Shown: piece after piece, positions 5,237-32,546 of the stretch
Numbering within the stretch: position 1 is the first letter of the stretch
How the letters are laid out: the number at the start of each line of letters is the position of its first letter
NCBI RefSeq assembly: GCF_020034665.1
Contig: NZ_JAIQDI010000001.1
Coordinates: 558,001 to 622,000 of the forward strand
Direction: 5' to 3'
Length of the DNA stretch: 64,000 nt
Source of the DNA: Niabella beijingensis
GTDB taxonomy: Bacteria; Bacteroidota; Bacteroidia; Chitinophagales; Chitinophagaceae
Translations under genes and position numbers: made by a program
Notes under the pieces: model-generated
Database searches by the model: none
Seen by the model: the letters and a program-made list of their open reading frames with translations, nothing else
What the model was told of the DNA's origin: nothing

Positions 5237-5323
5237 TTCAACTGTTTTCACAAAAATAGTAATTCTTTTTATATTGGCAGTATTTGTATATAGTATGTCT
5301 TTTCTGTCAAATCAATAAAAAAG

Positions 5324-17583: not shown

Positions 17584-17588
17584 TATAA

Positions 17589-18002
17589 TTATTTTTGAAG
17601 GTTGATATTTAAGATAATTTCGAAGTTGAAAGCCGAACTTACCGGACAGGTTTTTTCTGCTTCTCTGGCTATTTTTTCAAATTCCTCTGTGGAGATTCCG
17701 TCCACTTTTGCGTTGAGTGTCAATTCAGATTGTGTGATTTTTCCGTTGTCGAGGGTGATGACAGATTTTGTTTCCAGATTTTCGGGGTGATAACCGGCTT
17801 GTGTCAAATCCAGACTCAGTTTCATTGTAAAACATCCGGCGTGGGCGGCTGCCAAAAGCTCTTCTGGATTAGTTCCAACGCCGTCCGCAAAACGACTGTT
17901 GAATGAATATTGGGTTTGATTTAAAACGGTACTTTGAGTGGTTAAATGTCCGTTTCCTTCTTTGATGGTACCGTTCCAAACGGCGGTTGCGTTACGTTTC
18001 AT
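17589..18002 (-). CDS. osmC: OsmC family peroxiredoxin
   Basis: 137 residues. It reduces organic hydroperoxides using two cysteines: Cys57 in AAHAGCFTM and Cys119 in EKTCPVS. The N-terminal block [18 protein letters not shown] is that of OsmC rather than Ohr. It heads an operon with the secreted esterase. The upstream region carries the shared cargo promoter design, with GTACAATT 49 bp from the -7 box TACCTTTG. Confidence 0.92.
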
Positions 18003-18036
18003 AATCTTTGTTTTTAATTATTATTTTTTGATGAAA

Positions 18037-18093
18037 CAAAGGTATGTCGCTGCAAGGTGCTGAAAAATATCAAAAGGTCGATTAGAATTGTAC
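18037..18093 (-). promoter_or_regulatory. Shared-regulon promoter, osmC unit
   Basis: Minus strand: -7 box TACCTTTG at 18044-18037. A GTACAATTCTA element begins at 18093, exactly 49 bp upstream of the -7 start, where the other units have GTGCTATT. The second half-site 21 bp on is weak here. Confidence 0.5.
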
Positions 18094-18121
18094 TTTTTTC
18101 CTTCTATTGGGAAATGATGAA

Positions 18122-18979
18122 TTAATCTTTAATTTCTTTCCTAAAAACCGCCGGAGTTTTCCCTGATTTTTGGGCAAACATTCGATTAAAATACGCTGGG
18201 TCTTCATAGCCCAATTGATAGGCAATTTCCTTAATGCTCAATTCGCTGTAAAGCAGCAATCGCTTTGCTTCCAGAATGATTCTGTTTTTAATCATCTCAT
18301 TCGGATTTTCGAGATTGAGTTTGTGAAATTTATTGGAAAGCGTTTTGGGAGCCAGGTTCAGAAGGTCTGCATAATCGGCAACGCTGTGTTTTTCTTTGTA
18401 ATGAATATTTACCAGACGGCTAAAATTTCGGAAAAAATCCTGTTCAACATTAATGAGATTAAACTGTTCGGATTGAAGATTCTGTTTTTTCCATTGTCTT
18501 GTAGCTCTAATAATGATTTGTTTCAGATAGGTTCTAATCATTTCCTCAGATGAACGGTCTTGAAAATTAAGTTCATCATTGATTTGATTAAATAATTGCG
18601 ACACCGTTTTCAGCTGGTCTTCCAGCAAATCCACCTTTGGAATTTCAAAAATATTGTTGAATAAAAGTCCGTCACAAGCCACCTCTTCGTCGTGAATCTG
18701 AATGCAGTAAAAATCTCTGTTGTAATAAATCAAAAAAGCATCTTCATCAGTTGCCGATTGAATATCAAGATATTGATTGGTGTTAATGAAAAACAAAGCC
18801 GGATTTTCAGTTTCATAAACATTGAAATCTACCGTCAAAGAATAACCTGCGGGAACGAACAAAACTTTGATGTAAGGTCTGAATGTTTCTCCATTCACAA
18901 AATCCAACGTTTCGGAATTAAAAGAAACCAATCCTAATTTTTTGTGATGCGATTCGAAAATGGGAGTCAAATTGCTCAT
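18122..18979 (-). CDS. AraC family regulator
   Basis: A 285-residue regulator. The N-terminal domain is cupin-like (VLFVPAGYSLTVDF). The C-terminal 100 residues hold two HTHs: SVADYADLLNLAPKTLSNKF and SIKEIAYQLGYEDPAYFNRMF, with the terminal GKTPAVFRKE. It is divergent from the SDR gene at 19133 and 119 bp downstream of the osmC start region. It is a candidate regulator for either neighbour. Confidence 0.88.
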   Translation of the reverse strand: MSNLTPIFESHHKKLGLVSFNSETLDFVNGETFRPYIKVLFVPAGYSLTVDFNVYETENPALFFINTNQYLDIQSATDEDAFLIYYNRDFYCIQIHDEEVACDGLLFNNIFEIPKVDLLEDQLKTVSQLFNQINDELNFQDRSSEEMIRTYLKQIIIRATRQWKKQNLQSEQFNLINVEQDFFRNFSRLVNIHYKEKHSVADYADLLNLAPKTLSNKFHKLNLENPNEMIKNRIILEAKRLLLYSELSIKEIAYQLGYEDPAYFNRMFAQKSGKTPAVFRKEIKD

Positions 18980-19033
18980 TATCTACTTATGTTATTAGTA
19001 CAAATTTAAAATTATTTTCAAAAACGTAATTCT

Positions 19034-19090
19034 GTGCTATTCTTCCGCTGATTTGGGTTACAAGCTTGGTGCTGATGCGAGATAACTTTG
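19034..19090 (+). promoter_or_regulatory. Shared-regulon promoter, first SDR unit
   Basis: GTGCTATT begins at 19034, a second half-site GGGTTA begins at 19055 (21 bp on), and the -7 box TAACTTTG is at 19083-19090 (49 bp from the first half-site). Flanking bases TTCTTCCGCTGA are identical to those upstream of 26495. Confidence 0.75.
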
Positions 19091-19132
19091 TCTTATCAAA
19101 ATTTAAAAACAAAACAATCAAAATTTTAAAAA

Positions 19133-19957
19133 ATGGCAAAGACAATTTTTATCACAGGAGCATCAAGAGGATTTGGAAAACTTTGGACAGAAGCATTGCT
19201 AAAAAGAGGCGACAAAGTAGCGGCAACATCAAGAAACATTGAAGCTTATAAAGTTTTGGCAGAACAATATCCCGAAACTTTTCTTCCTATTTCTTTAGAT
19301 ATCACCGACAGAGAAGCGGTTTTTGAAGCAGTAAACAAAGCTAAAAATCACTTCGGAAGTTTAGATGTTGTCATCAATAACGCCGGTTATGGTGTTTTCG
19401 GAGCGGTGGAAGAAGTGGGAGAAAAAGCAATTAAAGATGTTTTTGAAGCCAATGTTTTTGGTACGCTTTGGGTAACACAGGCTGCTTTGCCGATTTTCAG
19501 AGCGCAGGGAAGCGGTCATGTGATTCAGTTATCGAGTGTTTTAGGGGTTTGGAGCTTACCGACTTTAGGAATTTACAACGCAACTAAATTTGCGGTGGAA
19601 GGTTTCAGCGAAGCTTTGGCAACAGAAGTGAAACCGTTCGGAATTAACGTGACCATGATTGAACCTAATGGCTACACAACCGATTTTGGTGGAAGTTCTG
19701 CAGTTCACGGCGATGCAATTCCGGCTTATGATGCTTTGAAAGCCAGTTTGGGAGAAGCTGAAGGTCTTTTACCTGAAGATTATGGAACACCGGATGCTAC
19801 CGTTCCTGCAATTTTAAAATTAATCGACAGCGAAAACCCGCCACTTCGTTTATTCTTAGGAAAAGTAGGATTAAGAAAAACCGAACGAGTTTATGCCGAA
19901 AAACTAAAGGTCTGGAACGATTGGAAAGAAGTTTCCGAAGCAGCTCACGGTCATTAA
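19133..19957 (+). CDS. Short-chain dehydrogenase/reductase
   Basis: A 274-residue classical SDR, an NAD(P)H-dependent oxidoreductase. It has the cofactor loop TGASRGFGKLW, the NNAGYGVFG block, catalytic Ser in QLSSVLGVW and the YNATK Tyr/Lys pair. The C-terminal third (residues 195-274) is longer than in minimal SDRs and ends WKEVSEAAHGH. It is closely similar to the SDR at 27222-28046, whose C-terminus is almost the same. It is the first gene behind a shared-regulon promoter and is followed by a hairpin terminator. Confidence 0.92.
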   Translation: MAKTIFITGASRGFGKLWTEALLKRGDKVAATSRNIEAYKVLAEQYPETFLPISLDITDREAVFEAVNKAKNHFGSLDVVINNAGYGVFGAVEEVGEKAIKDVFEANVFGTLWVTQAALPIFRAQGSGHVIQLSSVLGVWSLPTLGIYNATKFAVEGFSEALATEVKPFGINVTMIEPNGYTTDFGGSSAVHGDAIPAYDALKASLGEAEGLLPEDYGTPDATVPAILKLIDSENPPLRLFLGKVGLRKTERVYAEKLKVWNDWKEVSEAAHGH

Positions 19958-19965
19958 TTTTTTTA

Positions 19966-20007
19966 TGAAAGCCTTGCTGATAAAAAAGAGCAAGGCTTTC
20001 TTTTTTT
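19966..20007 (+). terminator. Intrinsic terminator after SDR
   Basis: GAAAGCCTTGCT pairs perfectly with AGCAAGGCTTTC and is followed by seven T. Only 14 bases then separate it from the MFS start, leaving no room for a full promoter, so the MFS gene probably depends on read-through. Confidence 0.85.
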
Positions 20008-20020
20008 AAATCCTATCAAT

Positions 20021-21238
20021 ATGAAATTTCAAAAGACAAAATATTTGTACATCAGTACAATATTGGCGTTTATGCTCATTCCGCTGGATGGCTTAACGAC
20101 GGATATTTACATTCCGTCACTTCCTGCGATGGCAGAAGATTTGAGTGTACCGGTTGAGAAAGTGCAGATTTCACTGCTTTTATTTATGGTAAGTTCAGGA
20201 TTTAGCCAGCTTTTTATCGGAAGTACTCTTGATAGTTTTGGGAGATACAGAATCAATATTTTTGCTTTAATCACCTTTTCTTTGGCAAGTTTTATCATTG
20301 CCTTGGTTCCGGAAATTTATGTGATTTATTTGATGAGAATTATTCAGGGGATCACGGTTTCACTCATTATTGTCGGGAAAAGAGCTTTTTTTGTTGACCT
20401 ATACAAAGGCGAAAAGCTGAAACACTACACCAGTCTTTTTTCGATTGTCTGGGCAACTGCACCTATTGTTGCACCCTTCATTGGTGGCTATTTACAGGTA
20501 CTTTTCGGGTGGAAATCCAATTTTTATCTCTTAGGAATTCTTACCATCATTATTTTGATTTTCGAACTTCGGTTTACAGGAGAATCTCTACAGAATTTTC
20601 AGGTGTTTAAAAGAAAAGAAATTGTAGCAGTTTACAAAAAAATGTTGGGAACACCTGATTTTTATTTAGGATTAATCATTATTGGTTTAAGCTATTCACT
20701 TCTAGTAGTTTACGGAATGGTAAGTCCCTTTATTATTGAAAAAGTATATGGATTTTCGCCAGTCGTTACGGGGTATAGCTCACTGGCTTCGGGAATTGCT
20801 TTAATGAGTGGCGGAATTACTTCTAAATTAATGATTAAAAAGGGACTTTTTACCAAAATAAATACGGCGATAATTTTACAGCTACTCATCGTTTTTGCAA
20901 TGCTTACTGTCACTTTAAAGTATGACGGATTTTTATTTTTACTGGGTTTCACTTTATCATTACATCTTTTATCGGGATTTATTTTCAATAATGTTTATGC
21001 GTACAGTTTACAGAGATTCAGGACAAATGCCGGAATTGCAAGTGGTTTGACTGGTGGTGGTGTGTATGTAGTAAGCTCAGTTGCGGGCTATGGATTAATT
21101 AATTTATTTGAAATTAAAGATATTCAGACATTTGCTTCGGTAAATTTTATCATTGTTGGGACATTATTCGTTACCATTTTACTGTTCAGAAAAGCTTCGA
21201 TGCATCAAAGATTGGAAGCAAGCTCGCAGGTAAGTTAG
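20021..21238 (+). CDS. MFS transporter, Bcr/CflA-like (DHA1)
   Basis: A 405-residue, 12-helix exporter of the inner membrane. The start LIPLDGLTTDIYIPSLPAM is typical of the Bcr/CflA multidrug subgroup. The loop GSTLDSFGRYRINI and the helix-5 region APIVAPFIGGYLQ fit DHA1. It lies between an SDR and an AraC pseudogene; in the duplicate unit at 27222-28972 SDR and AraC are directly adjacent, so this gene was either inserted here or lost there. Confidence 0.88.
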   Translation: MKFQKTKYLYISTILAFMLIPLDGLTTDIYIPSLPAMAEDLSVPVEKVQISLLLFMVSSGFSQLFIGSTLDSFGRYRINIFALITFSLASFIIALVPEIYVIYLMRIIQGITVSLIIVGKRAFFVDLYKGEKLKHYTSLFSIVWATAPIVAPFIGGYLQVLFGWKSNFYLLGILTIIILIFELRFTGESLQNFQVFKRKEIVAVYKKMLGTPDFYLGLIIIGLSYSLLVVYGMVSPFIIEKVYGFSPVVTGYSSLASGIALMSGGITSKLMIKKGLFTKINTAIILQLLIVFAMLTVTLKYDGFLFLLGFTLSLHLLSGFIFNNVYAYSLQRFRTNAGIASGLTGGGVYVVSSVAGYGLINLFEIKDIQTFASVNFIIVGTLFVTILLFRKASMHQRLEASSQVS

Positions 21239-21247
21239 TTACTATAC

Positions 21248-21278
21248 AAAACAGAAGTGCTGTCCATTTCTGTTTTTT
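21248..21278 (+). terminator. Intrinsic terminator after MFS
   Basis: AAAACAGAA pairs with TTCTGTTTT across a short loop and is followed by T residues. It ends the MFS transcript just after its stop codon. Confidence 0.65.
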
Positions 21279-21324
21279 AATTTCTTAAATTTGATAATAC
21301 TTAAAGCTTTTAGCCCAATTAAAT

Positions 21325-22232
21325 ATGGAAAAAATCAATCACTATAAAAGCATCGTAGAATTGCACGAGAAAAGCGGTTTCGAACCTCCGAAAAATCCCC
21401 TTTTAGTTTGATGACTTGTAAAGAATTAATGACCTATTCTGTAGGTGAAGACCGATTTACAGGAGATTTTTATATGATTGGTTTAAAAAAAATCAAGTCT
21501 GGTTATGTGTTGTATGGTAAAACTAAATATGATCACAACAATGGCTCGGCGGTTTTTATGAAGCCCAGACAAATCATTAAAGTTCGCAATGTTCAGTTTG
21601 CTGAAAAGGGTTTTGTGATGTTTTTCCACGAAGATTATTTATCGGGACATCCACTGAACGAGCAAATCAAAAAGTACGGTTATTTTGAATATGAGATCAA
21701 TGAAGCGCTTCACATTTCGCCTTCGGAAGAAGTGATTATGTGGGAACTTTATGAGAAAATCAGAAGAGAATATGATGAAAATTCGGACGAATTCAGCAGG
21801 GAAATTATTTTGTCGCATATCGATTCTATTTTAAAATATTCTGACCGTTTTTACAAAAGACAGTTCATAGACCGAAGCCCGAATGTTTCGGGAAGTATGG
21901 TTAAAAAATTCCTGATGGTTCTGGATGAGTATATCAAAGCGAACAAACATATTGATGACGGTTTGCCAAGCGTTAATTTTATGGCTGGAGAACTTGCGAT
22001 TTCTCCCCGTTATCTCAGCGATATTCTGAAACAGGAAACCGGAAAAACAGCCTTGGAACACGTTCATATTTATTTGATTAAAGAAGCTAAAAATCTGCTG
22101 TTGAGTTCAGAAAGCAACGTTGCAGGAATTGCCTATGATTTAGGTTTCGAAAGTCCGTCATATTTTACCAGATTATTTAAAAAAGTGGTTGGGGTAACGC
22201 CTGTTCAATATAAAAAAGAAGCGGTTAAGTAG
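21325..22232 (+). pseudogene. AraC family regulator with N-terminal frameshift
   Basis: Starting at ATG 21325, the frame reads NHYKSIVELHEKSGFEPP and stops at TGA 21409. The rest of the protein continues in another frame to 22232. The paralogue at 28082 reads PLFSMIGC at the matching point; adding one T to the run at 21401-21404 gives PLFSLMTC here. So one base is missing. The remainder is an intact AraC protein with two HTHs (VNFMAGELAISPRYLSDIL and NVAGIAYDLGFESPSYFTRLF). A TTG/ATG restart at 21408-21411 could give a 273-residue product lacking about 28 residues. It may be a sequencing error. Confidence 0.8.
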
Positions 22233-22244
22233 TTTTATATGTTT

Positions 22245-23162
22245 TTAATTCTGCTCAGGAAACTGTTTTCTGAAGTGCAGCGGAGAAATTCCGGCTTTGG
22301 TTTTGAAAATTTTAGTGAAGTGCGAGGGATGTTCAAAACCAAGTTCATAAGCAATTTCGCTTACCGATTTTGTAGTTCCCAAAAGGATGTTTTTTGCTTT
22401 ATCGACCAGCTTTAAATGAATGTGTTCTATAGTTGTTTTGCCTGTAAATTTACTGAGCAAGTCTGATAAATAATTGGGAGAAAAATTTAGTTTGTCGGCA
22501 AAATATTTTACTTCGGGAATGCCTTTTTCTATCAATTGTTCCTCATTAAAATAAGCATTAAGAAAACTTTCAAAACGTTGGGTTACATCGTTTCCGGTTT
22601 TGTTTCTGGTAAAAAACTGTCGGTCATAGAATCGGTCAGCATAATTCAAAAGCATTTCAATCTGATTTAAAATTAAACCTTGAGTATGGCGGTCGATATT
22701 CTGCGAATATTCTTTTTTAATCCTAACAATTACTTCATCAAGCAAAACTTTTTCATCTTCCGAAATGTGAAGTGCCTCTTTGCTTTCGTATTGAAAAAAG
22801 GTGTATTTCTGAATTTTTTTTCCTAAATCTGACCCGTAAATAAAATCAGGATGAAATGCCAGAAACCAACCTTCCTCAATCTGGGTATCTGCACTCGGGC
22901 TCATTACCTGGATGGGTGCCGTAAACATCAAAGTTCCTTCTTGAAAATCGTAATGGGAACGACCGTATTTTAAACTTCCTTTGAACTTTTTGAAAACAAT
23001 TGTGTACAAATCAAGGCTGTAAAAATAGTTGGCAAAATTCTCGTCAGATCGGCTTATGTTTTTCAAATCAATCACCGTCACCAAAGGATGTTTTGGGCTT
23101 CCGTAATTGTAAAAACGATGAAGGTCTGCAACCGATTTTATGGAAATAAAAGCTTCCGGCAT
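22245..23162 (-). CDS. AraC family regulator
   Basis: A 305-residue paralogue of the regulators at 21325 and 28082. It shares the N-terminal start (ISIKSVADLHRFYNYGSPKHP), the middle block with FADKLNFSPNYLSDLLSKFTG and the second HTH SVSEIAYELGFEHPSHFTKIF. It follows an SDR gene in the same direction (40 bp), the third SDR-AraC pair of the cargo, and is convergent with the frameshifted araC (12 bp between ends). Confidence 0.88.
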   Translation of the reverse strand: MPEAFISIKSVADLHRFYNYGSPKHPLVTVIDLKNISRSDENFANYFYSLDLYTIVFKKFKGSLKYGRSHYDFQEGTLMFTAPIQVMSPSADTQIEEGWFLAFHPDFIYGSDLGKKIQKYTFFQYESKEALHISEDEKVLLDEVIVRIKKEYSQNIDRHTQGLILNQIEMLLNYADRFYDRQFFTRNKTGNDVTQRFESFLNAYFNEEQLIEKGIPEVKYFADKLNFSPNYLSDLLSKFTGKTTIEHIHLKLVDKAKNILLGTTKSVSEIAYELGFEHPSHFTKIFKTKAGISPLHFRKQFPEQN

Positions 23163-23202
23163 TTTTCTGATTTTAGTATTAAATTTAAACTTTTCTGCTG
23201 AA

Positions 23203-24006
23203 TTACGCCTGCATCAATCTCAAAAAATCTGCTTCGGAATTTTTGTTTTTCAAGTCGATATAAAACTGTGCATCTTCGCCAATTACATATCTTAATTTGG
23301 GGAGTTGGTCTGTTGCAGCCCCGAAAATAGTTTCCGCAACCTGCTCTGCGCTCGCTTTTGGAATATGTTCTGTGCGTTTGGTAAATTTCGGAACGAATGC
23401 TGCCAATTCCGCATTATATTCTTCAATTGTATTCTGAATCATTTCGATTCCGCTTCTGAAATTCGTAGCGATACTTCCAGGTTCTACGATTTTTACATCA
23501 ATTCCGAACGCAGAAACTTCAAAATGTAAAGCTTCGGAAAATCCTTCCACTGCGAATTTCGAGCTGTTGTACAAGCTGGCAAAAGCTCCGGCGGTAATTC
23601 CTCCGAACGAAGAAATATTAATGATTGTTCCTTTTTTCTGTGCTCTCATTATTGGTAAAACGGCTTTGGTAACATTCATCAAACCAAAAACATTCACTTC
23701 AAATTGTTGCTGAATCTGTTTAGGATTTGAAGACTCAAAAACGCCCATCAATCCGTAGCCTGCGCTGTTTAGCAAAACATCAACCGAACCGAATGTTTCT
23801 GTGCCTTTTGCTATTGCTTCCTGAACTTGTTGTGAATTGGTGACATCCAATTTTACCAACAAAACGTTTTCAAGAAGATTCAGTTCTTTTTCGTTTTCCG
23901 GCGATCGCATTGCAGCTATTACATTCCATCCGTTTTGCTGAAATAATCTGGCGGTTGCCTTTCCTAATCCCGATGATGCACCGGTGATGAATACTGTACT
24001 TTTCAT
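23203..24006 (-). CDS. Short-chain dehydrogenase/reductase
   Basis: A 267-residue classical SDR with TGASSGLGKAT, LNSAGYGLMG (an unusual LNSAG for NNAG), Ser in NISSFGGI and YNSSK. It is less similar to the other two cargo SDRs than they are to each other. It probably reduces an aldehyde, ketone or quinone with NAD(P)H. It is co-directional with the AraC gene behind it. A degenerate version of the shared promoter is found upstream (24033-24088). Confidence 0.9.
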   Translation of the reverse strand: MKSTVFITGASSGLGKATARLFQQNGWNVIAAMRSPENEKELNLLENVLLVKLDVTNSQQVQEAIAKGTETFGSVDVLLNSAGYGLMGVFESSNPKQIQQQFEVNVFGLMNVTKAVLPIMRAQKKGTIINISSFGGITAGAFASLYNSSKFAVEGFSEALHFEVSAFGIDVKIVEPGSIATNFRSGIEMIQNTIEEYNAELAAFVPKFTKRTEHIPKASAEQVAETIFGAATDQLPKLRYVIGEDAQFYIDLKNKNSEADFLRLMQA

Positions 24007-24032
24007 AATGAATTTGTTTAAAATTTATAATG

Positions 24033-24088
24033 CAAAGTTCCGGCAACACGCCAAACCACAATTGTAGATTTTACGGAAAGACTTATAC
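24033..24088 (-). promoter_or_regulatory. Possible degenerate shared-regulon promoter, second SDR unit
   Basis: Minus strand: GAACTTTG (24040-24033) replaces the -7 box TAACTTTG. A GTATAAGTC segment begins at 24088, 48 bp upstream, followed by TTCCGTAAAATCTACAATT, which resembles the same region before 30498. Weak; spacing is off by one. Confidence 0.3.
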
Positions 24089-24117
24089 ATTTCTTCGCAA
24101 CTGACACCTTTCACTTA

Positions 24118-25080
24118 TCATTCTCTTATCGTGGTTTTATCTTCCAAAGCCATCTTCGCAATTTCGTCTTTACGCTTAAAACTTACACCTTCGTATTTTT
24201 TTATATATGTGAACAGTTCTTTCGCCGCCTGTACCATTTGCGGTGTGCCGCCAATTCGGTCGTGGAAGCTGATGGACATTTGCCTTCTGCGATTTGCGGC
24301 TTCTTCATACAACTGATCAAACTCCATTTTCACCTGATGTACGAATTGATCAACAGAGAAATTTTTGCCTTCAATGAGTTGAATGTCGTTGCAACGTAAT
24401 GTGTAAGGAACCGTTACAAAATCCTTTCCGTTTACCTTTTGAATAAAAGGTTCATCCCTACTTAAATCATCTATGTGGTACAAAAATCCCAATTCCTGTA
24501 AAATTTTCAACGTGTTTTCGCCCCTGCGCAACCAATTGGCATTATAACCAATTGCATCAAAACCAGTAATTTTTTTGATGGCATCCACACCGTCTTTAAT
24601 AAACTTTTTCTCCTCGTTGTATGACATTGTGTATTGCGTAGCCCAGTTCATTCCGTGTGCAGCAGCTTCGTGACCACGATCTACAATTTCTTTTGCCAAT
24701 GCCGGATTTTTTAGCACTGCACTGCCCACCATATGCGAGGTGATTTTTACACCCAACTTATCCCAGTTATCCAACATCCGAGGAATACCTTCTTTATATC
24801 CGTACTCATACCAGGTTGTTGCCGGTAAATCTTTATAGCCTTTTTCCATATTTTGAGGGAAAGGGCTTTCTGCATTTTCGGGTTGCCCGCCGGCTTCAAA
24901 CTGCATAGAAACTGAAACCACCAATCTTGAACCATCCAACCATTTTGATTTTTTTGATTTGGACTCTGGTTGCATATTTTTTCCGCTTTGCGCCATTCCA
25001 GAAAATGGTACGGCGCTTGCAACCAAGCCCGCTGTGGTAAGCAAACTGCCTTGTTTTATGAACTTTCTTCTGTCAATCAT
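24118..25080 (-). CDS. Exported polysaccharide-deacetylase-like protein
   Basis: 320 residues. The start MIDRRKFIKQGSLLTTAGLV is a twin-arginine-type signal (RRKFIK). The body is a NodB-homology fold of the PuuE/allantoinase-like subgroup: HMVGSAVL, then EIVDRGHEAAAHGMNW with His/Glu, ending with SFHDRIGGTP. A second metal site is plausible but the usual TxxD start of NodB motif 1 is not obvious, so catalysis may differ from chitin deacetylases. It starts four bases after the doxX stop and is co-transcribed with it. Confidence 0.8.
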   Translation of the reverse strand: MIDRRKFIKQGSLLTTAGLVASAVPFSGMAQSGKNMQPESKSKKSKWLDGSRLVVSVSMQFEAGGQPENAESPFPQNMEKGYKDLPATTWYEYGYKEGIPRMLDNWDKLGVKITSHMVGSAVLKNPALAKEIVDRGHEAAAHGMNWATQYTMSYNEEKKFIKDGVDAIKKITGFDAIGYNANWLRRGENTLKILQELGFLYHIDDLSRDEPFIQKVNGKDFVTVPYTLRCNDIQLIEGKNFSVDQFVHQVKMEFDQLYEEAANRRRQMSISFHDRIGGTPQMVQAAKELFTYIKKYEGVSFKRKDEIAKMALEDKTTIRE

Positions 25081-25084
25081 ATTT

Positions 25085-25477
25085 TTATTTTTTAAAAAAT
25101 TGGTCTAGTGAAATGCTGTTTGCAGCGATGAATTGGTACAGCGCAACAAGGATGATGGCGTGTATCATTTGCGATGGTAAAGCCTCCCAATTTTCTATTA
25201 GGCAAGTGCCGAACATTAATAGGAGCATCACAACCCAACCTGCGATAATTACTTTAGGAGAAAAGATGCCCAAGATTAGTAATATACCGATAGTGAATTC
25301 TGCCACTGGCAAGGCGTAGCTAAAAGGCGTAACCAAACTTTGTGGCAACATTGATTTTGAAAAACTGCCAGTCATCCATTGACTAAAAGCATTCAATTTT
25401 GGTAACCTTACCAAACCGTGCCCGAAAAAACTGATGCCCGCCACCAGACGTAACATGAGATAAGAAATATCATTCAT
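25085..25477 (-). CDS. DoxX family membrane protein
   Basis: About 130 residues with four hydrophobic helices: YLMLRLVAGISFFGHGLVRL at the start and later FTIGILLILGIF, VVMLLLMFGTCL and a final helix ending SLDQFFKK. DoxX proteins are small inner-membrane proteins linked to redox or thiol stress. I prefer ATG 25477 over the upstream TTG at 25501, because GAACTTTG there looks like a promoter. It heads an operon with the deacetylase-like gene and is divergent from an AraC gene. Confidence 0.8.
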   Translation of the reverse strand: MNDISYLMLRLVAGISFFGHGLVRLPKLNAFSQWMTGSFSKSMLPQSLVTPFSYALPVAEFTIGILLILGIFSPKVIIAGWVVMLLLMFGTCLIENWEALPSQMIHAIILVALYQFIAANSISLDQFFKK

Positions 25478-25484
25478 AATAAAG

Positions 25485-25500
25485 TTTTTTACAAAGTTCA
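25485..25500. promoter_or_regulatory. 16-mer shared with the aldehyde dehydrogenase upstream region
   Basis: TTTTTTACAAAGTTCA here is identical to 14127-14142. On the minus strand it contains GAACTTTG, a possible -7 box for doxX. It may be a common regulatory element or a common promoter core. Confidence 0.4.
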
Positions 25501-25558
25501 ACTAAACACAAGGAAGTAAACAAGGTTTTTTACTGGATTTTTTTGTAAAATTGCAGGT

Positions 25559-26386
25559 ATGGAAGTGCAAAATTTATACAGTACCTATGAATTAGAATGG
25601 CTCGAAACGCACGAGTACACCGCCAAACCCCGAAAAAATACTTTTTTTGAGATGGTTTTTGTGATGGAAGGAACAGGCATCCAAATCATTAATGAGCATC
25701 AACTTCCTTATGCGCCTAACAAATTATTCCTGATTTTTCCAGAGGATCTGCATAGTTTCGAGGTTCAATCGTTAAGCCAGTTTTTCTTCATCAGGTTTAA
25801 TAACGATTATATTAAAACCCAAAACAGCCAAAACATCCGTGAGCTGGAATATATTTTTAACAGCCACAATCATCTTCCGGGTTGCATTCTAAAAACCGTT
25901 ACCGACAAGCCGTTTATCCGTGCCGCCGTCGAAGCTTTAATTCGTGAAAGGGCAAGCCAGGCACCTCATCAGGAGCAAGTCATTCAACAATTAATAAATA
26001 CCATTATTACCTATGCTGCCCGCAATCTTACTTTGCAGGAAAAGGAAGTTTTCAATGGTAAAATTTCCAGTGTAATGCCTATCATTAATTACCTTCATCA
26101 ACATATTTTCGAGCCAGAGAAATTAAAAGTCAACCAACTGGCGGCACAGTTTCATCTTTCTCCAAAATATATGGGCGAATATTTTAAAAAACACACCGGA
26201 GAAAGCCTGCAACAATATATTATGCTTTATAAGTTGAAGCTCATTGAAAGCCGTTTAATGTTAACTGATATGCGTATTAATGAAATTGCTTTAGAATTTG
26301 GTTTTACAGACCAAAGTCATTTAAACAGGATCTTTAAAAAATATAAAGGTAAATCCCCTTCTTCGTATCGAAAGAGAAGCATTTAA
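25559..26386 (+). CDS. AraC family regulator
   Basis: A 275-residue regulator of a different subgroup from the SDR-linked ones. The cupin part includes FFEMVFVMEGTGIQIINEHQ and NKLFLIFPEDLHSFEV. The C-terminus has KVNQLAAQFHLSPKYMGEYF and RINEIALEFGFTDQSHLNRIF, ending GKSPSSYRKRS. It is divergent from doxX with 81 bp between starts, and probably controls the doxX-deacetylase operon. Confidence 0.9.
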   Translation: MEVQNLYSTYELEWLETHEYTAKPRKNTFFEMVFVMEGTGIQIINEHQLPYAPNKLFLIFPEDLHSFEVQSLSQFFFIRFNNDYIKTQNSQNIRELEYIFNSHNHLPGCILKTVTDKPFIRAAVEALIRERASQAPHQEQVIQQLINTIITYAARNLTLQEKEVFNGKISSVMPIINYLHQHIFEPEKLKVNQLAAQFHLSPKYMGEYFKKHTGESLQQYIMLYKLKLIESRLMLTDMRINEIALEFGFTDQSHLNRIFKKYKGKSPSSYRKRSI

Positions 26387-26402
26387 TACTATGGGTATTT
26401 CT

Positions 26403-26459
26403 GTGCTATTCTTCCGCTGAAATGGGTTAGTAATTTCTTTGTGTGCTGATATAACTTTG
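26403..26459 (+). promoter_or_regulatory. Shared-regulon promoter, AhpD-like unit
   Basis: GTGCTATT begins at 26403, the second half-site GGGTTAGT at 26424, and the -7 box TAACTTTG at 26452-26459. The spacings of 21 and 49 bp equal those at 19034, 27134 and 30411. Confidence 0.75.
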
Positions 26460-26494
26460 TATTAACAAAATGAAATAATTTAAATCGTAAAAAA

Positions 26495-27034
26495 ATGAAA
26501 ACAATTTCAGTACCCGAAAAAGAACAGCTAAGCTTTAGTGCACAGAGCATTTTAGAATCTGTAGAGAAAAAAATGGGAAAAATTCCCAATTTGTACGCAA
26601 CGATAGGCTATTCATCATCCGCTTTAAAATCAATGTTGGAAACCGAGGCATCTTTGGCACACGACTCATCGTTTACGGCAAAAGAAAGAGAAGCGATTAA
26701 TCTAATCGTTTCGCAAGTCAATGAATGTGATTACTGTTTGGCAGCGCACACTACATTGGCGAAAATGAGAGGTTTTACAGAAGAAGATACGCTGGAAATC
26801 AGAAAAGGAAGTTTTTCTGAGGCAAAATTAGAAGCTGCGATTAAATTGGCTCACTCCATTGCAAACAATAAAGGCAACGCAGGAAACGGGGCTTTAGAAA
26901 ATTTCTTCAATGCAGGTTTCGACGAAAAAGCTCTAGTTGAACTGACTGCTTTGGTGGCGTTGAGAAGTTTTACCAACTATGTATTTGCCAACACTCAGAT
27001 TCCTATTGATTTTCCTTTGGCACAGGCTATTTAA
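26495..27034 (+). CDS. Carboxymuconolactone decarboxylase/AhpD-like protein
   Basis: A 179-residue protein of the AhpD-like fold with the redox motif CDYCLAAH (Cys78, Cys81, His85) expected in alkylhydroperoxidase-like members. The N-terminal region QSILESVEKKMGKIPNLY is typical of the peroxidase-related subgroup. It probably has a thiol-dependent peroxidase activity. It is a single-gene unit between a shared-regulon promoter and a hairpin terminator at 27070-27105. Confidence 0.9.
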   Translation: MKTISVPEKEQLSFSAQSILESVEKKMGKIPNLYATIGYSSSALKSMLETEASLAHDSSFTAKEREAINLIVSQVNECDYCLAAHTTLAKMRGFTEEDTLEIRKGSFSEAKLEAAIKLAHSIANNKGNAGNGALENFFNAGFDEKALVELTALVALRSFTNYVFANTQIPIDFPLAQAI

Positions 27035-27069
27035 GAAGTGTTTTAATATAAGTATTTAGTTTTAAGTGG

Positions 27070-27105
27070 AAGCCTTCCAGATGTATATTTGGGAGGCTTT
27101 TTTAT
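27070..27105 (+). terminator. Intrinsic terminator after AhpD-like gene
   Basis: AAGCCTTCC pairs with GGGAGGCTT (one wobble pair) across a 12-base loop, followed by a run of T. Confidence 0.8.
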
Positions 27106-27133
27106 TTTTAAATTTTTTCCAAAACGTATTTCT

Positions 27134-27190
27134 GTGCTATTTTTCAGCTAAAATGAGCTAGCAGTTCGGTTGGGTTTGATGATAACTTTG
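27134..27190 (+). promoter_or_regulatory. Shared-regulon promoter, third SDR unit
   Basis: GTGCTATT begins at 27134, the second half-site GAGCTA at 27155, and the -7 box TAACTTTG at 27183-27190. The 21-bp and 49-bp spacings are the same as in the other units. Confidence 0.75.
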
Positions 27191-27221
27191 CTTCATTAAA
27201 TAACACTAAAAAATTAAAACA

Positions 27222-28046
27222 ATGAGTAAAATAGTTCTTATCACAGGAGCATCAAAAGGATTCGGAAAATTATGGGCTGAAGCACTTTTGGAAAGAGGAG
27301 ACAAAGTAGCGGCAACCGCAAGGAACGTTTCTTCATTACAGAATTTGAAAGATAAATACGGCGACAATATTTTGCCTTTAAAGCTTGATGTTAATAACCG
27401 TTCAGAAGTTTTTGAAGTAACGGAACAGGTAGAAAAACATTTCGGAAGAATTGATGTCTTGATTAATAATGCAGGTTTTGGTTTATTCGGAACAACGGAA
27501 GAAACGACAGAACAGCAGGCGAGAGACCAGATGGAAACCAACTTTTTCGGTTCACTTTGGGTAGCACAGGCCGTTCTACCAGTGATGAGAAAACAAAAAA
27601 GCGGACATATCATTCAGATTTCCAGCTTTTTGGGATTAACGACTTTGCCACTTTTAGGATTGTACAACGCTTCAAAATTTGCGATAGAAGGTTTAATTGA
27701 AACGATTGGTTCAGAAACAGCTCATTTGGGAATTAAAACGACATTAATAGAACCTAACGGATTTGCCACAGATTGGGCAGGAGCTTCGGCAGTTCAGACT
27801 TCTTCGGAGATTGCAGATTATAACCCTGTTCGTGCTGCATTTGCCGAAAGTGGGGAAAATCCGGATACCTGGGGAAAACCAGAAGCGACAGTAGAACCTG
27901 TTTTGAATCTTATCGACAATCAAAATCCTCCTCAACGATTATTGTTGGGTAAAATTGCGTATCACGCTATCAATGAGATTTACACCAAAAGATTAAATGA
28001 TATCCAAGAATGGAAAGAAGTGAGTATTGCCGCTCACGGTCATTAA
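27222..28046 (+). CDS. Short-chain dehydrogenase/reductase
   Basis: A 274-residue duplicate of the SDR at 19133 with the same length and the same ending (EWKEVSIAAHGH). It has TGASKGFGKLW, NNAGFGLFG, Ser in QISSFLGL and YNASK. Both copies share the same promoter type, indicating duplication of promoter and gene together. An AraC gene begins 35 bp after its stop and is presumably co-transcribed. Confidence 0.92.
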   Translation: MSKIVLITGASKGFGKLWAEALLERGDKVAATARNVSSLQNLKDKYGDNILPLKLDVNNRSEVFEVTEQVEKHFGRIDVLINNAGFGLFGTTEETTEQQARDQMETNFFGSLWVAQAVLPVMRKQKSGHIIQISSFLGLTTLPLLGLYNASKFAIEGLIETIGSETAHLGIKTTLIEPNGFATDWAGASAVQTSSEIADYNPVRAAFAESGENPDTWGKPEATVEPVLNLIDNQNPPQRLLLGKIAYHAINEIYTKRLNDIQEWKEVSIAAHGH

Positions 28047-28081
28047 AAAAACAGTAAATTAGTATTTCAAATTCAACAGTA

Positions 28082-28972
28082 ATGACACATTATAAAACCC
28101 TTACCGAATTGCATTTGGGGAATCATTGGGATGCTCCTGAACATCCGCTTTTCAGTATGATTGGATGCCAATCGGCGTGTACTTTGGGAAACCGGGAGTT
28201 TACAACAGATTGTTATGTGATAGCTTTCAAAAAAATAAAATCGGGAGTTTTTATGTACGGTCGTACGCAATACGACCACGATAATGGTTGTTTGTTTTTT
28301 GCAAAACCACGTCAAATCATAGAGTTGAAGGACCTTCAATTCGAAGAAAAAGGCTATATGCTGATGATCCACGAAGATTATCTGAATGGACACGAGCTTT
28401 TCAAGGAAATTGAAAAATATAGCTTCTTCGATTATGAAGTAACGGAAGCACTGCATCTTTCGCCAAAAGAAGAACAGATTATACTGGAACTCCACTCAAA
28501 AATTCAGGGAGAATATTTTAATAACCCCGATGAGTACAGCCGTGAGATTATCTTAAGTCATATTTCATCGATTTTAAAATATGCGCAGCGATATTACAAA
28601 AGGCAATTTATCGACCGAGCGCAGGTAACAGGCAAGACAGCTTCCAAGTTTAATGACGCGTTGAAAAAATATCTGGATGAAGGCTTATTAGAGAAAAATG
28701 GTCTTCCGAATGTTGCTTTTTTAGCCGATCAACTTTTTGTTTCTCCAAGATACCTAAGTGACTTATTAAAACAGGAAACCGGAAAAACCGCAATGGAACT
28801 GATTCATATTTTTATGATTTCTGAAGCGAAAAACCTATTGAGATTGGGCGAAAAAGGGGTGGCTGAAATTGCTTATGAATTAGGCTTTGAAAACGCCTCT
28901 TATTTCACAAGATTATTCAAGAAACAGACGGGAATGAAACCTTTGGAGTTTAGGAAATTGCAGATGAACTGA
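28082..28972 (+). CDS. AraC family regulator
   Basis: A 296-residue intact paralogue of the frameshifted regulator at 21325 (shared HYKTLTELH start, RQIIELKDLQFEEKGYMLMI, HEDYL, and the YYKRQFIDRA block). The two HTHs are VAFLADQLFVSPRYLSDLL and GVAEIAYELGFENASYFTRLF. It lies behind a shared-regulon promoter in an SDR-AraC operon, so it may be autoregulated; this intact copy is the best candidate for the regulon's activator. Confidence 0.9.
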   Translation: MTHYKTLTELHLGNHWDAPEHPLFSMIGCQSACTLGNREFTTDCYVIAFKKIKSGVFMYGRTQYDHDNGCLFFAKPRQIIELKDLQFEEKGYMLMIHEDYLNGHELFKEIEKYSFFDYEVTEALHLSPKEEQIILELHSKIQGEYFNNPDEYSREIILSHISSILKYAQRYYKRQFIDRAQVTGKTASKFNDALKKYLDEGLLEKNGLPNVAFLADQLFVSPRYLSDLLKQETGKTAMELIHIFMISEAKNLLRLGEKGVAEIAYELGFENASYFTRLFKKQTGMKPLEFRKLQMN

Positions 28973-28999
28973 AATTAAAACTGCATTACAATTTGTTAC

Positions 29000-29035
29000 A
29001 GTCATAGCAAGAATCAACTTGCTGTGACTTTTTTT
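29000..29035 (+). terminator. Terminator between convergent araC and hxlR
   Basis: AGTCATAGCAAG pairs with CTTGCTGTGACT (one wobble) around AATCAA, followed by seven T. It overlaps the last codons of the convergent hxlR gene. Confidence 0.8.
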
Positions 29036-29370
29036 CTATGTTCCAGGCCCCAGTCTTTCATCGCCATAATTACTTTTTCTAAGGACAATCCGTGTTCAGT
29101 GATTTCATATTCTACTGTTGGGGGAAATGTGTCATGTACGGTTCTGGTAATTAATAGATTTGTCTCCAATTCCTTTAGTTCCTTTGATAAAACCTTATCT
29201 GTAATCTTAGGAATTTCTCTTGCAAGCTCCCTAAACCTTTTACTTCCGAAAGATAAAGAAACGATAATTGGTAATTTCCATTTTCCTTTTAAAATTTCTA
29301 ATGCGTCCTGTATTGGAAGCATTATTTCCATACAAGTTTTTTGTTCAGTACCGTCAGTTACTCTAGCCAT
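29014..29370 (-). CDS. HxlR family transcriptional regulator
   Basis: 118 residues, the usual HxlR length. It has a winged HTH with DALEILKGKWKLPIIVSLSF, then FRELAREIPKITDKVLSKEL and a wing VEYEITEHGLSLEKVI. A single Cys near residue 14 (KTCMEI) is in the position of the redox or aldehyde-sensing Cys of several HxlR proteins. It is divergent from the MBL-fold gene, with repeated dyads between them. Confidence 0.92.
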   Translation of the reverse strand: MARVTDGTEQKTCMEIMLPIQDALEILKGKWKLPIIVSLSFGSKRFRELAREIPKITDKVLSKELKELETNLLITRTVHDTFPPTVEYEITEHGLSLEKVIMAMKDWGLEHRKKVTAS

Positions 29371-29392
29371 AATATTCCATTACTTACTTAAA

Positions 29393-29451
29393 AGATAGTG
29401 CTATCTAAAAAGATAGTAATATCTTTTAGATAGTTACTTGCTTTAATTTTG
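29393..29451 (+). promoter_or_regulatory. HxlR operator dyads and MBL promoter
   Basis: AGATAGTGCTATCT (29393-29406) is a palindrome except for its two central bases. AGATAGTAATATCT (29411-29424) is a near-palindrome of the same type 18 bp on. The -7 box TAATTTTG is at 29444-29451, 22 bases before ATG 29473. The dyads lie between divergent hxlR and MBL genes and would cover the -33 region. Confidence 0.65.
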
Positions 29452-29472
29452 TATCAACAAATTTATAAAAAA

Positions 29473-30366
29473 ATGAATACACTCAACAACATTAAAAATC
29501 CGGGATATTTTAAATTCCAATTAGGAAAACTTCATTTGGCTGTGATTACAGATGGAGTTATTGAAATTGAAAACATTCAGCCAATGTTTGCACCTAATAT
29601 TGAAAAAGAGAAACTCAAAAAATTTTTAAATGAAAATAGGCTTACGGAAGACAAATTAGAATTGGCAGGTAATATTCTTTTAATAACAGACGGGAAGAAA
29701 AATATTCTAATAGACACAGGTAGTGGTGTTATGCTTTCACCTCTTGGTGGCAAGTTAATTGAAAACCTGGCGAATTTAGGTGTTAGTCCTCAAGAAATAA
29801 CGGATATTGTTTTTACTCACGCCCATCCTGACCATATTGGAGGAGTTGTTGACAAAGAAGGCAAATTGGTTTTTGAAAATGCTCATTATTATATTTCAGA
29901 AACAGAATATAAATTCTGGATGTCTGAGGAACCTGACTTTTCAAAAGGTACGAAAAATCAATTTTCCGATTTTGAAATCCAGTTTGCAAGAGACCATTTT
30001 AAACCAATCGATTCAAAACTTACTTTTTATGAAGATAGCGCCGACCTGTTTGGTTTTCTTCGATTGGAACATGCACCAGGTCATACGCCTGGACACACAA
30101 TTATTACCATTACATCTGAGGGAGAAGAATTATTACATATAGCTGATACTTTTCAGCACATATTGTTGGTCGCGCATCCTGAATGGGGTAATCAAATTGA
30201 TTCTGATTTTGAATTAGGTATTAAAACACGAAAAAATCTTCTTGAAAAATTAGCATCTTCAAACCAACTCCTTTTTGGAGATCATTTGCCATATCCCGGC
30301 TTAGGCTTTATCGAAAGAAATGAAGAAGGGTATCGATACATTCCAAAAGCTTTTTATACCGTTTAA
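29473..30366 (+). CDS. MBL-fold metallohydrolase
   Basis: About 297 residues with the metallo-beta-lactamase fold. The metal ligands are visible: THAHPDHIGG (HxHxDH), the His in APGHTPGHT, the Asp in IADTFQH and a final GDHLPYPG. Its length and ILIDTGSG start are those of the quorum-quenching-lactonase-like/aryl-hydrolase branch, but the substrate is open. ATG 29473 is used since the promoter overlaps the upstream alternative at 29449. It is controlled in all likelihood by the divergent HxlR. Confidence 0.9.
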   Translation: MNTLNNIKNPGYFKFQLGKLHLAVITDGVIEIENIQPMFAPNIEKEKLKKFLNENRLTEDKLELAGNILLITDGKKNILIDTGSGVMLSPLGGKLIENLANLGVSPQEITDIVFTHAHPDHIGGVVDKEGKLVFENAHYYISETEYKFWMSEEPDFSKGTKNQFSDFEIQFARDHFKPIDSKLTFYEDSADLFGFLRLEHAPGHTPGHTIITITSEGEELLHIADTFQHILLVAHPEWGNQIDSDFELGIKTRKNLLEKLASSNQLLFGDHLPYPGLGFIERNEEGYRYIPKAFYTV

Positions 30367-30371
30367 AGTAA

Positions 30372-30396
30372 AATCCTCCCAGGTGGAGGATTTTTA
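30372..30396 (+). terminator. Intrinsic terminator after MBL gene
   Basis: AATCCTCC (30372-30379) pairs perfectly with GGAGGATT (30385-30392), followed by T residues. Confidence 0.85.
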
Positions 30397-30410
30397 GTTT
30401 ATGTAAATCT

Positions 30411-30467
30411 GTGCTATTTATTCCTCGAAATGTACTATTTATTCAGGTATAGTTGAAGGTAACTTTG
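30411..30467 (+). promoter_or_regulatory. Shared-regulon promoter, royal-jelly-like operon
   Basis: GTGCTATTTATTC begins at 30411 and GTACTATTTATTC at 30432, so the 13-bp half-sites differ by one base with 21-bp spacing. This is the clearest direct repeat of the set. The -7 box TAACTTTG is at 30460-30467, 49 bp from the first half-site. Confidence 0.8.
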
Positions 30468-30497
30468 TACTATCAAAATTATTGAAATCAAATAAAG

Positions 30498-31568
30498 ATG
30501 AAAATTACATTTAGCCTTTTACCTCTGCTGCTTATCTGCGGATTTGCCAATGCACAATTACAGCAAGTAGCAACTTCGAACTTAGTTTGGAACGGTGTAA
30601 CCACAAGTTCCGATGGAAGAATATTCGTCAACTTCCCTAAAATAGAAGGCGGAAAAGGAATGAGTGTGGGCGAAGTTTTAAAAGATGGGAAAATCATTCC
30701 CTACCCCAATGAAGATTGGAACAATTGGCAACCTGGTGAAGATGTAAACGAAAAGTTTGTAAGGACGAATTCCATACGTATCGTAAATGGTCAGCTTTGG
30801 ATTGTGGATACCGGAACACCTTCAATGGGACAAAATCCGTTATCAGGAAATGCATTAAAATTGGTTTCGATTAATATTAAAACCAATACCATTCAACAGA
30901 TAATTCCCCTTACTGGACTTGCAAAACCTTCAACTTTTATTGATGATCTAAGAATTTCGAGAAACATCATTTATCTGACAGATGCGGGAGAACCGGCTTT
31001 AATTATTTTGGATAAAACGACAGGTAAAGGAAGAAGAGTTTTAGAAAATCAACCTTCAACCACGGATAATTTACCCATAAAAGCGGAAGGGAAAATCATG
31101 AAAGATGAAAAAAGAAATGAAGTGAGAATCCACGCAGACCAATTGGAAATTTCTCCCGATGGGAAATGGCTTTACTTTCAGCCTGCAAGCGGTCCGCTTT
31201 GGAGAGTGGAAACGCAATATCTGAATGATGAAAATATATCTGAAAAAGATCTGGCATCGAAAGTAGAATTATTCTATAAAACCCCATCAACAGGAGGAAC
31301 AGCCATCGATGCAGACGGAAATATTTATGTAAGCGATGTCAATAAAAGCGAAATCATTAAAATATCACCAGAAGGAAAAGAAAGTCTGGTCATTAAAGAC
31401 AAAAGATTGCTTTGGGCAGACGCTTTATGGATTGATGACAACGGCTATCTATGGATTCCCACAGGTCAGCTCAACCGTTTGGCGGCATTTCAAAACGGAA
31501 AAAGCAAAGTGGAACTTCCCGTTGTGATTTACAAGTTGAAAATCAATGCAAAACCTCTAAATAACTAA
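30498..31568 (+). CDS. Secreted major-royal-jelly/yellow-like protein
   Basis: 356 residues with a signal peptide ending near FANAQ. The body is a six-bladed propeller of the major royal jelly/yellow family (SMP-30-like): DGRIFVNFPKIEG, NSIRIVNGQLWIVDTGTP, FIDDLRIS, HADQLEISPDGKWLYF and GGTAIDADGNIYVSDVN repeats. Such proteins bind small molecules or act as lactonases in the periplasm. It is the first of a four-gene operon and has a paralogue (lipoprotein form) at 32563. Confidence 0.85.
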   Translation: MKITFSLLPLLLICGFANAQLQQVATSNLVWNGVTTSSDGRIFVNFPKIEGGKGMSVGEVLKDGKIIPYPNEDWNNWQPGEDVNEKFVRTNSIRIVNGQLWIVDTGTPSMGQNPLSGNALKLVSINIKTNTIQQIIPLTGLAKPSTFIDDLRISRNIIYLTDAGEPALIILDKTTGKGRRVLENQPSTTDNLPIKAEGKIMKDEKRNEVRIHADQLEISPDGKWLYFQPASGPLWRVETQYLNDENISEKDLASKVELFYKTPSTGGTAIDADGNIYVSDVNKSEIIKISPEGKESLVIKDKRLLWADALWIDDNGYLWIPTGQLNRLAAFQNGKSKVELPVVIYKLKINAKPLNN

Positions 31569-31610: not shown

Positions 31611-32546
31611 ATGAAAGCAATCATATTAAAAGAAGCAGGAAGCGTAGAAAATTTAGAATATGTGGAATTGGCGAGACCTGCCATTAACGAAGGTGAAGTA
31701 TTGATAAAAGTAAAAGCTATCAGTATTAATCCTGTAGACACAAAAAGCCGTTCTGGAAAAGGCGTTTATGGAAGAATAAAAACAGAAAATCCATTGATTT
31801 TGGGTTGGGATATTTCCGGGATCGTGGAAGAAACTAAAAGTTCAGATTTTAAAATAGGCGATGAAGTTTTCGGAATGGTTAATTTTCCCGGACACGGAAA
31901 AGCGTATGCAGAATTTGTAGCGGTTCCAGCCAATCAACTGGCATTAAAACCAAAAAATATCTCTTTTGAAGATGCTGCAGCTTCCACTTTGGTTGCGCTT
32001 ACGGCGTATCAGGCTTTGGTTCACAATGCGAATATTCAGGAAGGGCAAAAAGTTTTGGTTCACGCCGCATCAGGTGGAGTTGGGCATATCGCGGTACAGA
32101 TTGCCAAACATTTGGGAGCGAAAGTAACGGGAACTTCTTCCGCTAAAAACAAAGATTTTGTCTTGGGCCTAGGTGCAGATTCACATATCGACTATCACGG
32201 TTTCGACTGGAAATCAGCGGGCAGAACTTTTGATTTTGTGTTGGATACGATTGGAGGAGATAATATCGACCATTCTCTTGAAGTGACCAAAGAAGGTGGT
32301 TCTATCATCAGTATTCCGACAGGATTGAATGAAGAGGTCACTTCAAAGGCAAACTCTAAAGGAGTGAAAGGTTATTTCATTCTAGTACAATCCAGCGGTG
32401 AGGATATGAAACAGATTGCTTCTTTCTTGGAAAGTGGTGCTGTAAAACCTCATGTTTCAAAGGTTTTTCCTTTCGAACAAATGAGAGAAGCTCATTTGGA
32501 GCAGGAAACGGGCAGAACGGTGGGTAAAATAGTGATAACGCTTTAA
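31611..32546 (+). CDS. Zinc-independent quinone-oxidoreductase-type alcohol dehydrogenase
   Basis: A 311-residue MDR-superfamily protein. The N-terminal GroES-like domain includes ISINPVDTKSRSG and LGWDISGIV; the Rossmann domain has HAASGGVGHIAVQIAKHLG. There are no Cys/His zinc ligands, as in quinone oxidoreductases and enone reductases using NADPH. It follows the royal-jelly-like gene by 42 bp and precedes its lipoprotein paralogue by 16 bp. A role in reducing quinones or enones fits the cargo. Confidence 0.9.
   Translation: MKAIILKEAGSVENLEYVELARPAINEGEVLIKVKAISINPVDTKSRSGKGVYGRIKTENPLILGWDISGIVEETKSSDFKIGDEVFGMVNFPGHGKAYAEFVAVPANQLALKPKNISFEDAAASTLVALTAYQALVHNANIQEGQKVLVHAASGGVGHIAVQIAKHLGAKVTGTSSAKNKDFVLGLGADSHIDYHGFDWKSAGRTFDFVLDTIGGDNIDHSLEVTKEGGSIISIPTGLNEEVTSKANSKGVKGYFILVQSSGEDMKQIASFLESGAVKPHVSKVFPFEQMREAHLEQETGRTVGKIVITL

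Follow-up and report, generated by a model that had tools for sequence, protein, structure and literature searches.

We analysed a 64,000-nucleotide stretch of the Niabella beijingensis genome (contig NZ_JAIQDI010000001.1, positions 558,001 to 622,000; the window) and found four promoter sites that are very probably operators of an AraC-family activator switching on four transcription units. These units encode an SDR oxidoreductase, an MFS transporter and an AraC protein (SDR-MFS-AraC), an AhpD-like enzyme, a second SDR with a second AraC protein (SDR-AraC), and two major-royal-jelly-protein (MRJP) family proteins flanking a quinone-oxidoreductase-like (QOR) enzyme (MRJP-QOR-MRJP). From the DNA we infer binding, activation, feedback and an inducer. 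The four units look like one co-controlled gene set that travels together, and comparison across genomes suggests that the regulator is most likely the AraC protein encoded at 28082 (AraC28) with its paralogue at 21408 (AraC21).

In each of the four promoters GTGCTATT starts, at 19034, 26403, 27134 and 30411, exactly 49 bp before a -7 box TAACTTTG. The operators, all on the plus strand, occupy 19025..19061 ahead of the SDR-MFS-AraC unit (half-sites TGTGCTA and, 21 bp further on, TGGGTTA; -7 box 19083..19090), 26394..26430 ahead of the AhpD-like gene (-7 box 26452..26459), 27125..27161 ahead of the SDR-AraC unit (-7 box 27183..27190) and 30402..30438 ahead of the MRJP operon (-7 box 30460..30467). 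As originally predicted, second half-sites begin 21 bp after the first and read GGGTTA, GGGTTA, GAGCTA and GTACTA, respectively; the repeat is obvious by eye in the MRJP promoter, where TGTGCTATTTATTC and TGTACTATTTATTC stand 21 bp apart. A direct pair with this spacing is what an AraC-type operator would present. On a motif matrix trained on 50 sites, these four among them, the operators score 60.3, 57.6, 54.8 and 31.5, against a maximum of 1.1 over 40 simulated 128-kb sequences, and no other of the window's 62 TAnnTTTG boxes has a sequence at that distance scoring better than -49.

The search was extended to the whole assembly (6,589,346 bases in 3 contigs). Searching for GTGCTATT-N41-TAnnTTTG with at most one mismatch returned five matches (four exact and one mismatched) and one in the reversed control, and TGTGCTATT-N40/41-TAnnTTTG returned four matches and none in the control. 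No exact copy beyond the four was found in the whole 6.59-Mb genome, and all four are confined to 11.5 kb. An Rfam scan of 17500-31000 gave no match.

The original prediction had placed the same box in a fifth promoter, that of osmC, and this part of the claim fell away. On the minus strand at 18093, GTACAATT lies 49 bp before TACCTTTG, so that the distance is kept but the sequence is not. Because the promoter scores -49.8 on the matrix and has no second half-site of this kind, we do not count osmC as a member of the regulon. It carries a different conserved element: alignment with two other osmC regions (L011 and L016) revealed a separate element around GTACAATT (17990-18100), at the same distance from the -7 box in both; the divergent AraC at 18122 may be the protein that binds there.

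The available part of a study of Flavobacterium psychrophilum sigma-A promoters places the TAnnTTTG box at -12 to -5 (PMC9723704). With the box so placed, the half-sites here begin at about -61 and -40, and the motif runs to about -33, giving a fixed distance to the core promoter and a proximal half-site in the -33/-35 region, as expected of an activator site. None of 53 sites has a TTG that begins 21-26 bp ahead of the -7 box; 7 of 81 other boxes do, a modest contrast. The half-site positions and the missing -33 TTG thus form the layout of an activator that replaces the -33 element. We propose that a dimer of AraC28 (plus intact AraC21 where present) would bind the two direct half-sites 21 bp apart, that the promoter-proximal half-site would cover the -33 region of a promoter without a -33 box, and that bound AraC would recruit RNA polymerase to TAACTTTG, activating the SDR-MFS-AraC, AhpD, SDR-AraC and MRJP-QOR-MRJP units. 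With promoters of this kind driving both AraC genes, the circuit would be expected to be self-amplifying, and positive feedback on AraC28 is likely because its gene begins 36 bp after the SDR gene (28046/28082).

The design is conserved well beyond this genome. Scanning one genome for each of 84,980 species with the pattern CTGTGCTATT-N40..42-TAACTTTG yielded 72 matches in 64 stretches. They come from Chryseobacterium, Sphingobacterium, Flavobacterium, Chitinophaga and other genera, and in most cases genes of the same families follow. The letters GTA, which are outside the search pattern, stand just upstream in 57 of the 72 matches, and an SDR, AhpD or MRJP homologue comes next downstream in 51 of these 57, as against 1 of the 15 without the prefix (L029). 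The gap within the GTA-bearing matches is 40 in 13 and 41 in 44, corresponding to a spacing of 48 or 49 bp; all six gap-42 matches lack GTA and belong to the 15. Fifty distinct sites gave the full motif cGTAawTCTGTGCTATTCTTCCGCTGAaaTGRGCTA (about 35-37 bp), in which CTGTGCTATT and TAACTTTG were preset by the search and the related sites are not independent. The predicted paired box is therefore kept across genera, with its 21/49 bp geometry corrected to a distance of 48 or 49 bp and the motif extended to about 37 bp. The same site precedes several units and is retained in related clusters, as one regulon would require.

An alternative is shared ancestry, with each promoter copied along with its gene and the motif having no role in binding. 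In its favour, the two SDR genes are homologous and the cluster moves as a block (in Chitinophaga terrae its proteins are 98-100% identical). We consider it highly improbable: the same motif lies ahead of the unrelated SDR, AhpD and MRJP genes, the motif and -7 box are kept while the stretch from the second half-site to the box varies, and in the variant sites described below both half-sites change together at the same spacing.

The full motif is absent from the 16 other genomes of the genus that were scanned along with this one. Two of them contain a single match, in both cases lacking the remainder of the motif, and one has a control match. Class-wide, 4 of 395 genomes match the pattern, the match in G340 being without the rest of the motif. 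Viral contigs gave four matches, none with the full motif, and a plasmid collection gave two weak partial matches.

AraC28 (28082..28972, plus strand), the most likely binder and activator, has the C-terminal double helix-turn-helix (HTH) domain of the AraC family (PF12833, E 2.1e-22, residues 214-292), with Ser273 in its second recognition helix. AraC21 (21408..22232, plus strand) is 56% identical to it; its N-terminal part is out of frame here (21325-21411), which could be a real disruption or an assembly error, and intact copies exist elsewhere (for example, L010). Site-bearing loci mostly carry an AraC28-like gene or the paralogue within 8 kb, and an AraC of this family was present in 11 of 11 site-bearing genomes that were searched whole. 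In one genus (g34, 118 genomes), a looser pattern matched 18 genomes, of which by reading 12 have real sites and 6 chance matches (G411, G415, G441, G474, G487 and G513). All 12 are within the 17 genomes that have AraC28 at 79% identity or more (Fisher 7e-13, for genes that are co-inherited). The remaining five have a weaker site, by AraC28 in G425, G437, G449 and G482 and by an AraC21-type gene in G435, so that some such site is found in 17 of 17. The sites of a g34 genome lie mostly within 14 kb, those of G523 in three places.

Either paralogue may suffice. With 20 candidates scored per genome, 7 of the 17 (G425, G437, G449, G482, G486, G503 and G520) have a single family protein above the cut-off, which suggests that AraC28 can probably serve without its paralogue. 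Conversely, the search of the draft genome G536 (L069) brought up no AraC28; a TGTGCTA site is present there together with three proteins, one AraC21-type, one TGTATCA-type and one 39% identical. On the strength of this one draft genome, AraC21 can probably serve too.

The letters of the site follow the protein. Where the SDR-AraC operon in loci of relatives 53-62% identical has a site, it reads TGTATCA/TGTATAA or a close variant, with half-sites 21 bp apart and 48-49 bp to the -7 box, and in L187 both half-sites are changed, to TGTCCCA/CGTGCCA. Because the spacing stays the same while the letters change, geometry is a property of the family and the letters are a property of the clade.

A weaker copy of the operator, with the box CAACTTTG or a variant, lies about 0.8-1 kb upstream of AraC28 in L125, L127, L128, L129, L135 and L150. 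This is the place where, in loci such as L009, a 277-amino-acid gene, alpha/beta-hydrolase-like as judged by eye, sits between SDR and AraC. An AraC28-like protein (E up to 1e-92) is encoded in 121 of 400 genomes from the order of G379; going by the few loci read there, many are of the TGTATCA type and the SDR-AraC module is widespread.

Several observations weigh against the four sites being activator operators of AraC28 and AraC21. For five of the 57 GTA-bearing matches the stretch continues, yet no member of the named families appears in the next 250 bp. In L033, L048 and L049 a strong operator copy precedes a gene for a 244-amino-acid protein (without a Pfam match in L048) and then AhpD, and in L018 and L037 the next homologue is a QOR gene; a sixth exception, L046, is cut by the locus end. 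In some loci of the AraC28 clade, L140 and L208 among them, the 3.9 kb examined showed no site. A TTG lies 30 bp upstream of the box in 11 of 53 sites, and the position of the site alone is compatible with repression. Cluster genes are co-inherited, so that linkage alone cannot name the regulator, and the AraC genes at 18122, 22245 and 25559 are often in the same clusters.

The last two points bear on specific alternatives. A repression operator for the same AraC proteins would also have its proximal half-site overlapping the -33 region, but we think it unlikely given the missing TTG at the -33 place and a box distance held at 48-49 bp across genera, as polymerase contact would require. Binding of the motif by a different regulator, whether one of the cluster (AraC 18122, 22245 or 25559, or HxlR 29014) or one of the host, seems quite unlikely. 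All four cluster genes share many clusters with the site, and in L174 a 39%-identical AraC22-type gene lies near a site-like sequence without a proper -7 box. However, in the 8-kb loci L013, L021, L062 and L070 no AraC gene of the window other than AraC28 or AraC21 has a homologue next to the site, the osmC gene next to AraC 18122 carries its own element, and the site letters change with the clade of the AraC28/21-like protein. We therefore retain AraC28 and AraC21 as the most likely activators. The prediction of one AraC-type activator site for several cluster units is supported by conservation, linkage and covariation, except for osmC and for the finding that the site is associated with two clades of paralogous AraC proteins.

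How two clades came to share a site was approached with a tree of 63 rows hand-picked from AraC loci, in which L168 and L170 were labelled by clade and cluster, and L193 and L202 by sites at some distance. The 33 TGTGCTA-type rows fall into two clades, that of AraC21 lying inside the TGTATCA types on starred branches, and the test rejects placing all TGTGCTA types in one clade (p-AU 3e-6). A first tree, built from a different set of rows without L201 and others, did not reject a single origin (p 0.375). The two clades thus seem, from these sequences, to have reached the same site separately.

Residue 273 of the second recognition helix is Ser in 33 of 33 TGTGCTA types and Pro in 23 of 23 TGTATCA types. 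Ser by itself is not enough: it goes with other sites in L187 and L199, and in five Ser rows (L142, L192, L194, L205 and L227) no such site was found, L192 and L194 being seen in 3.9-kb loci only. In an earlier comparison of the two site types, the position-5 letters follow partly from the definitions of those types, and so it is no test. We set a rule beforehand (Ser273 predicts C at half-site position 5, Pro predicts T) and applied it to 40 further loci (L195-L234), in 39 of which residue 273 was readable (all but L216; 22 Ser, 17 Pro). A site was seen in 14 of the 17 Pro loci, with T in 14 of 14 (the site of L202 is about 5 kb from its AraC gene), and none was seen in L200, L225 and L232. 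Among the 22 Ser loci a site was seen in 14, with C in 13, of which at least four (L195, L207, L214 and L223) are repeats under other names, leaving at most nine truly new. The exception, L199 (TGTGTCA/TGTATCA), has T, and there the rule fails. No site passed the filters in Ser loci L204, L205, L208-L212 and L227, although L210 coincides with L160, where a site was seen. The L196 minus strand and the first L230 sequence passed the anchor without being repeats and were not counted. A position-4 version of the rule also fails, as L134 and L136 have A with Ser. There are only two or three independent contrasts, too few for a statistical test.

We tentatively suggest, as a possibility short of an even chance, that the two paralogues descend from different ancestors that bound TGTATCA, that each changed its preference to TGTGCTA, apparently by the same Pro-to-Ser change in the second recognition helix, and that separate SDR-AraC modules thereby fused into a horizontally spreading multi-operon regulon in which geometry stayed fixed and specificity moved.

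All genes of the four units are on the plus strand. The first unit comprises an SDR oxidoreductase of NCBIfam family PRK08263 (19133..19957), a Bcr/CflA-like MFS transporter that falls under the NCBIfam cut-off (20021..21238) and AraC21. The AhpD-like peroxidase-related enzyme (26495..27034) belongs to the CMD family and has a CxxC in its sequence, and the SDR preceding AraC28 is again of the PRK08263 family (27222..28046). The last operon encodes two MRJP family proteins (30498..31568 and 32563..33699) around the QOR-like medium-chain dehydrogenase (31611..32546). Going by enzyme families only, the trigger could be peroxide or aldehyde stress, with a reactive carbonyl, quinone or peroxide compound as a plausible signal. 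Other candidate operators lie nearby. Upstream of a minus-strand SDR gene at 23203, TGTATAAG and TCTACAAT stand 21 bp apart (24036-24095) and may represent a third type of operator, one serving the AraC at 22245. GATAGT/CTATC-like boxes are repeated at 29385-29440 between divergent HxlR and metallo-beta-lactamase-fold genes and are possibly an HxlR operator.

Conjugation-type genes lie on both sides of the cluster in the window: a T4CP/TraG-like coupling protein (2213-4213), RteC (35927-36766) and a DUF4099/DUF3945 protein (33724), and a small HTH_17 protein also flanks it. Aconitase-, LeuA- and isopropylmalate-dehydrogenase-like genes begin from 39.5 kb. No integrase was found among the window open reading frames scanned, and no tRNA in the window; nor were element ends identified, though no search was aimed at them. 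The near-identical Chitinophaga terrae cluster and the flanking conjugation genes fit recent transfer, probably on a conjugative element. On the same putative element, an AraC with a DJ-1/PfpI domain (4226-5251) adjoins a glyceraldehyde-3-phosphate dehydrogenase gene (5351).

At araI1-I2, E. coli AraC activates from a pair of direct half-sites with 21-bp spacing, of which the proximal one falls in the -35 region. The best match among solved structures is the DNA-binding domain of this protein (2k9s, E 5.6e-10). The two systems are alike in half-site layout, in that domain and, as proposed here, in activation, but similarity is limited to the HTH domain, and E. coli AraC regulates arabinose genes from a sigma-70 promoter, not one with TAnnTTTG. 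Direct repeats with 21-bp periodicity are already in print as predicted operators of AraC-family rhamnose regulators of Bacteroides, Bacillales and Enterococcus (PMC3870299). By the description in the available part of that paper, those operators share the periodicity of the present site but are set apart by their own unique motifs, rhamnose-use genes and other AraC groups. The F. psychrophilum work shares the TAnnTTTG box and, in the part available, describes a promoter class, not the present operator (PMC9723704). Bacterial MRJP proteins are known from Flavobacterium akiainvivens, in a report whose available part does not mention AraC or a regulon (PMC6801697). A search of open-licence papers returned no description of this operator, gene set or regulator.

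For a cluster found repeatedly across Bacteroidota, our analysis puts forward a regulator together with its operator and target genes. What most deserves testing is the proposed double origin of operator preference. The natural series of operators, with constant spacing and varying half-sites, offers a ready system for reading an AraC recognition code, and the cluster presents a case of two regulators that seem to have converged on one operator, thereby tying modules together.

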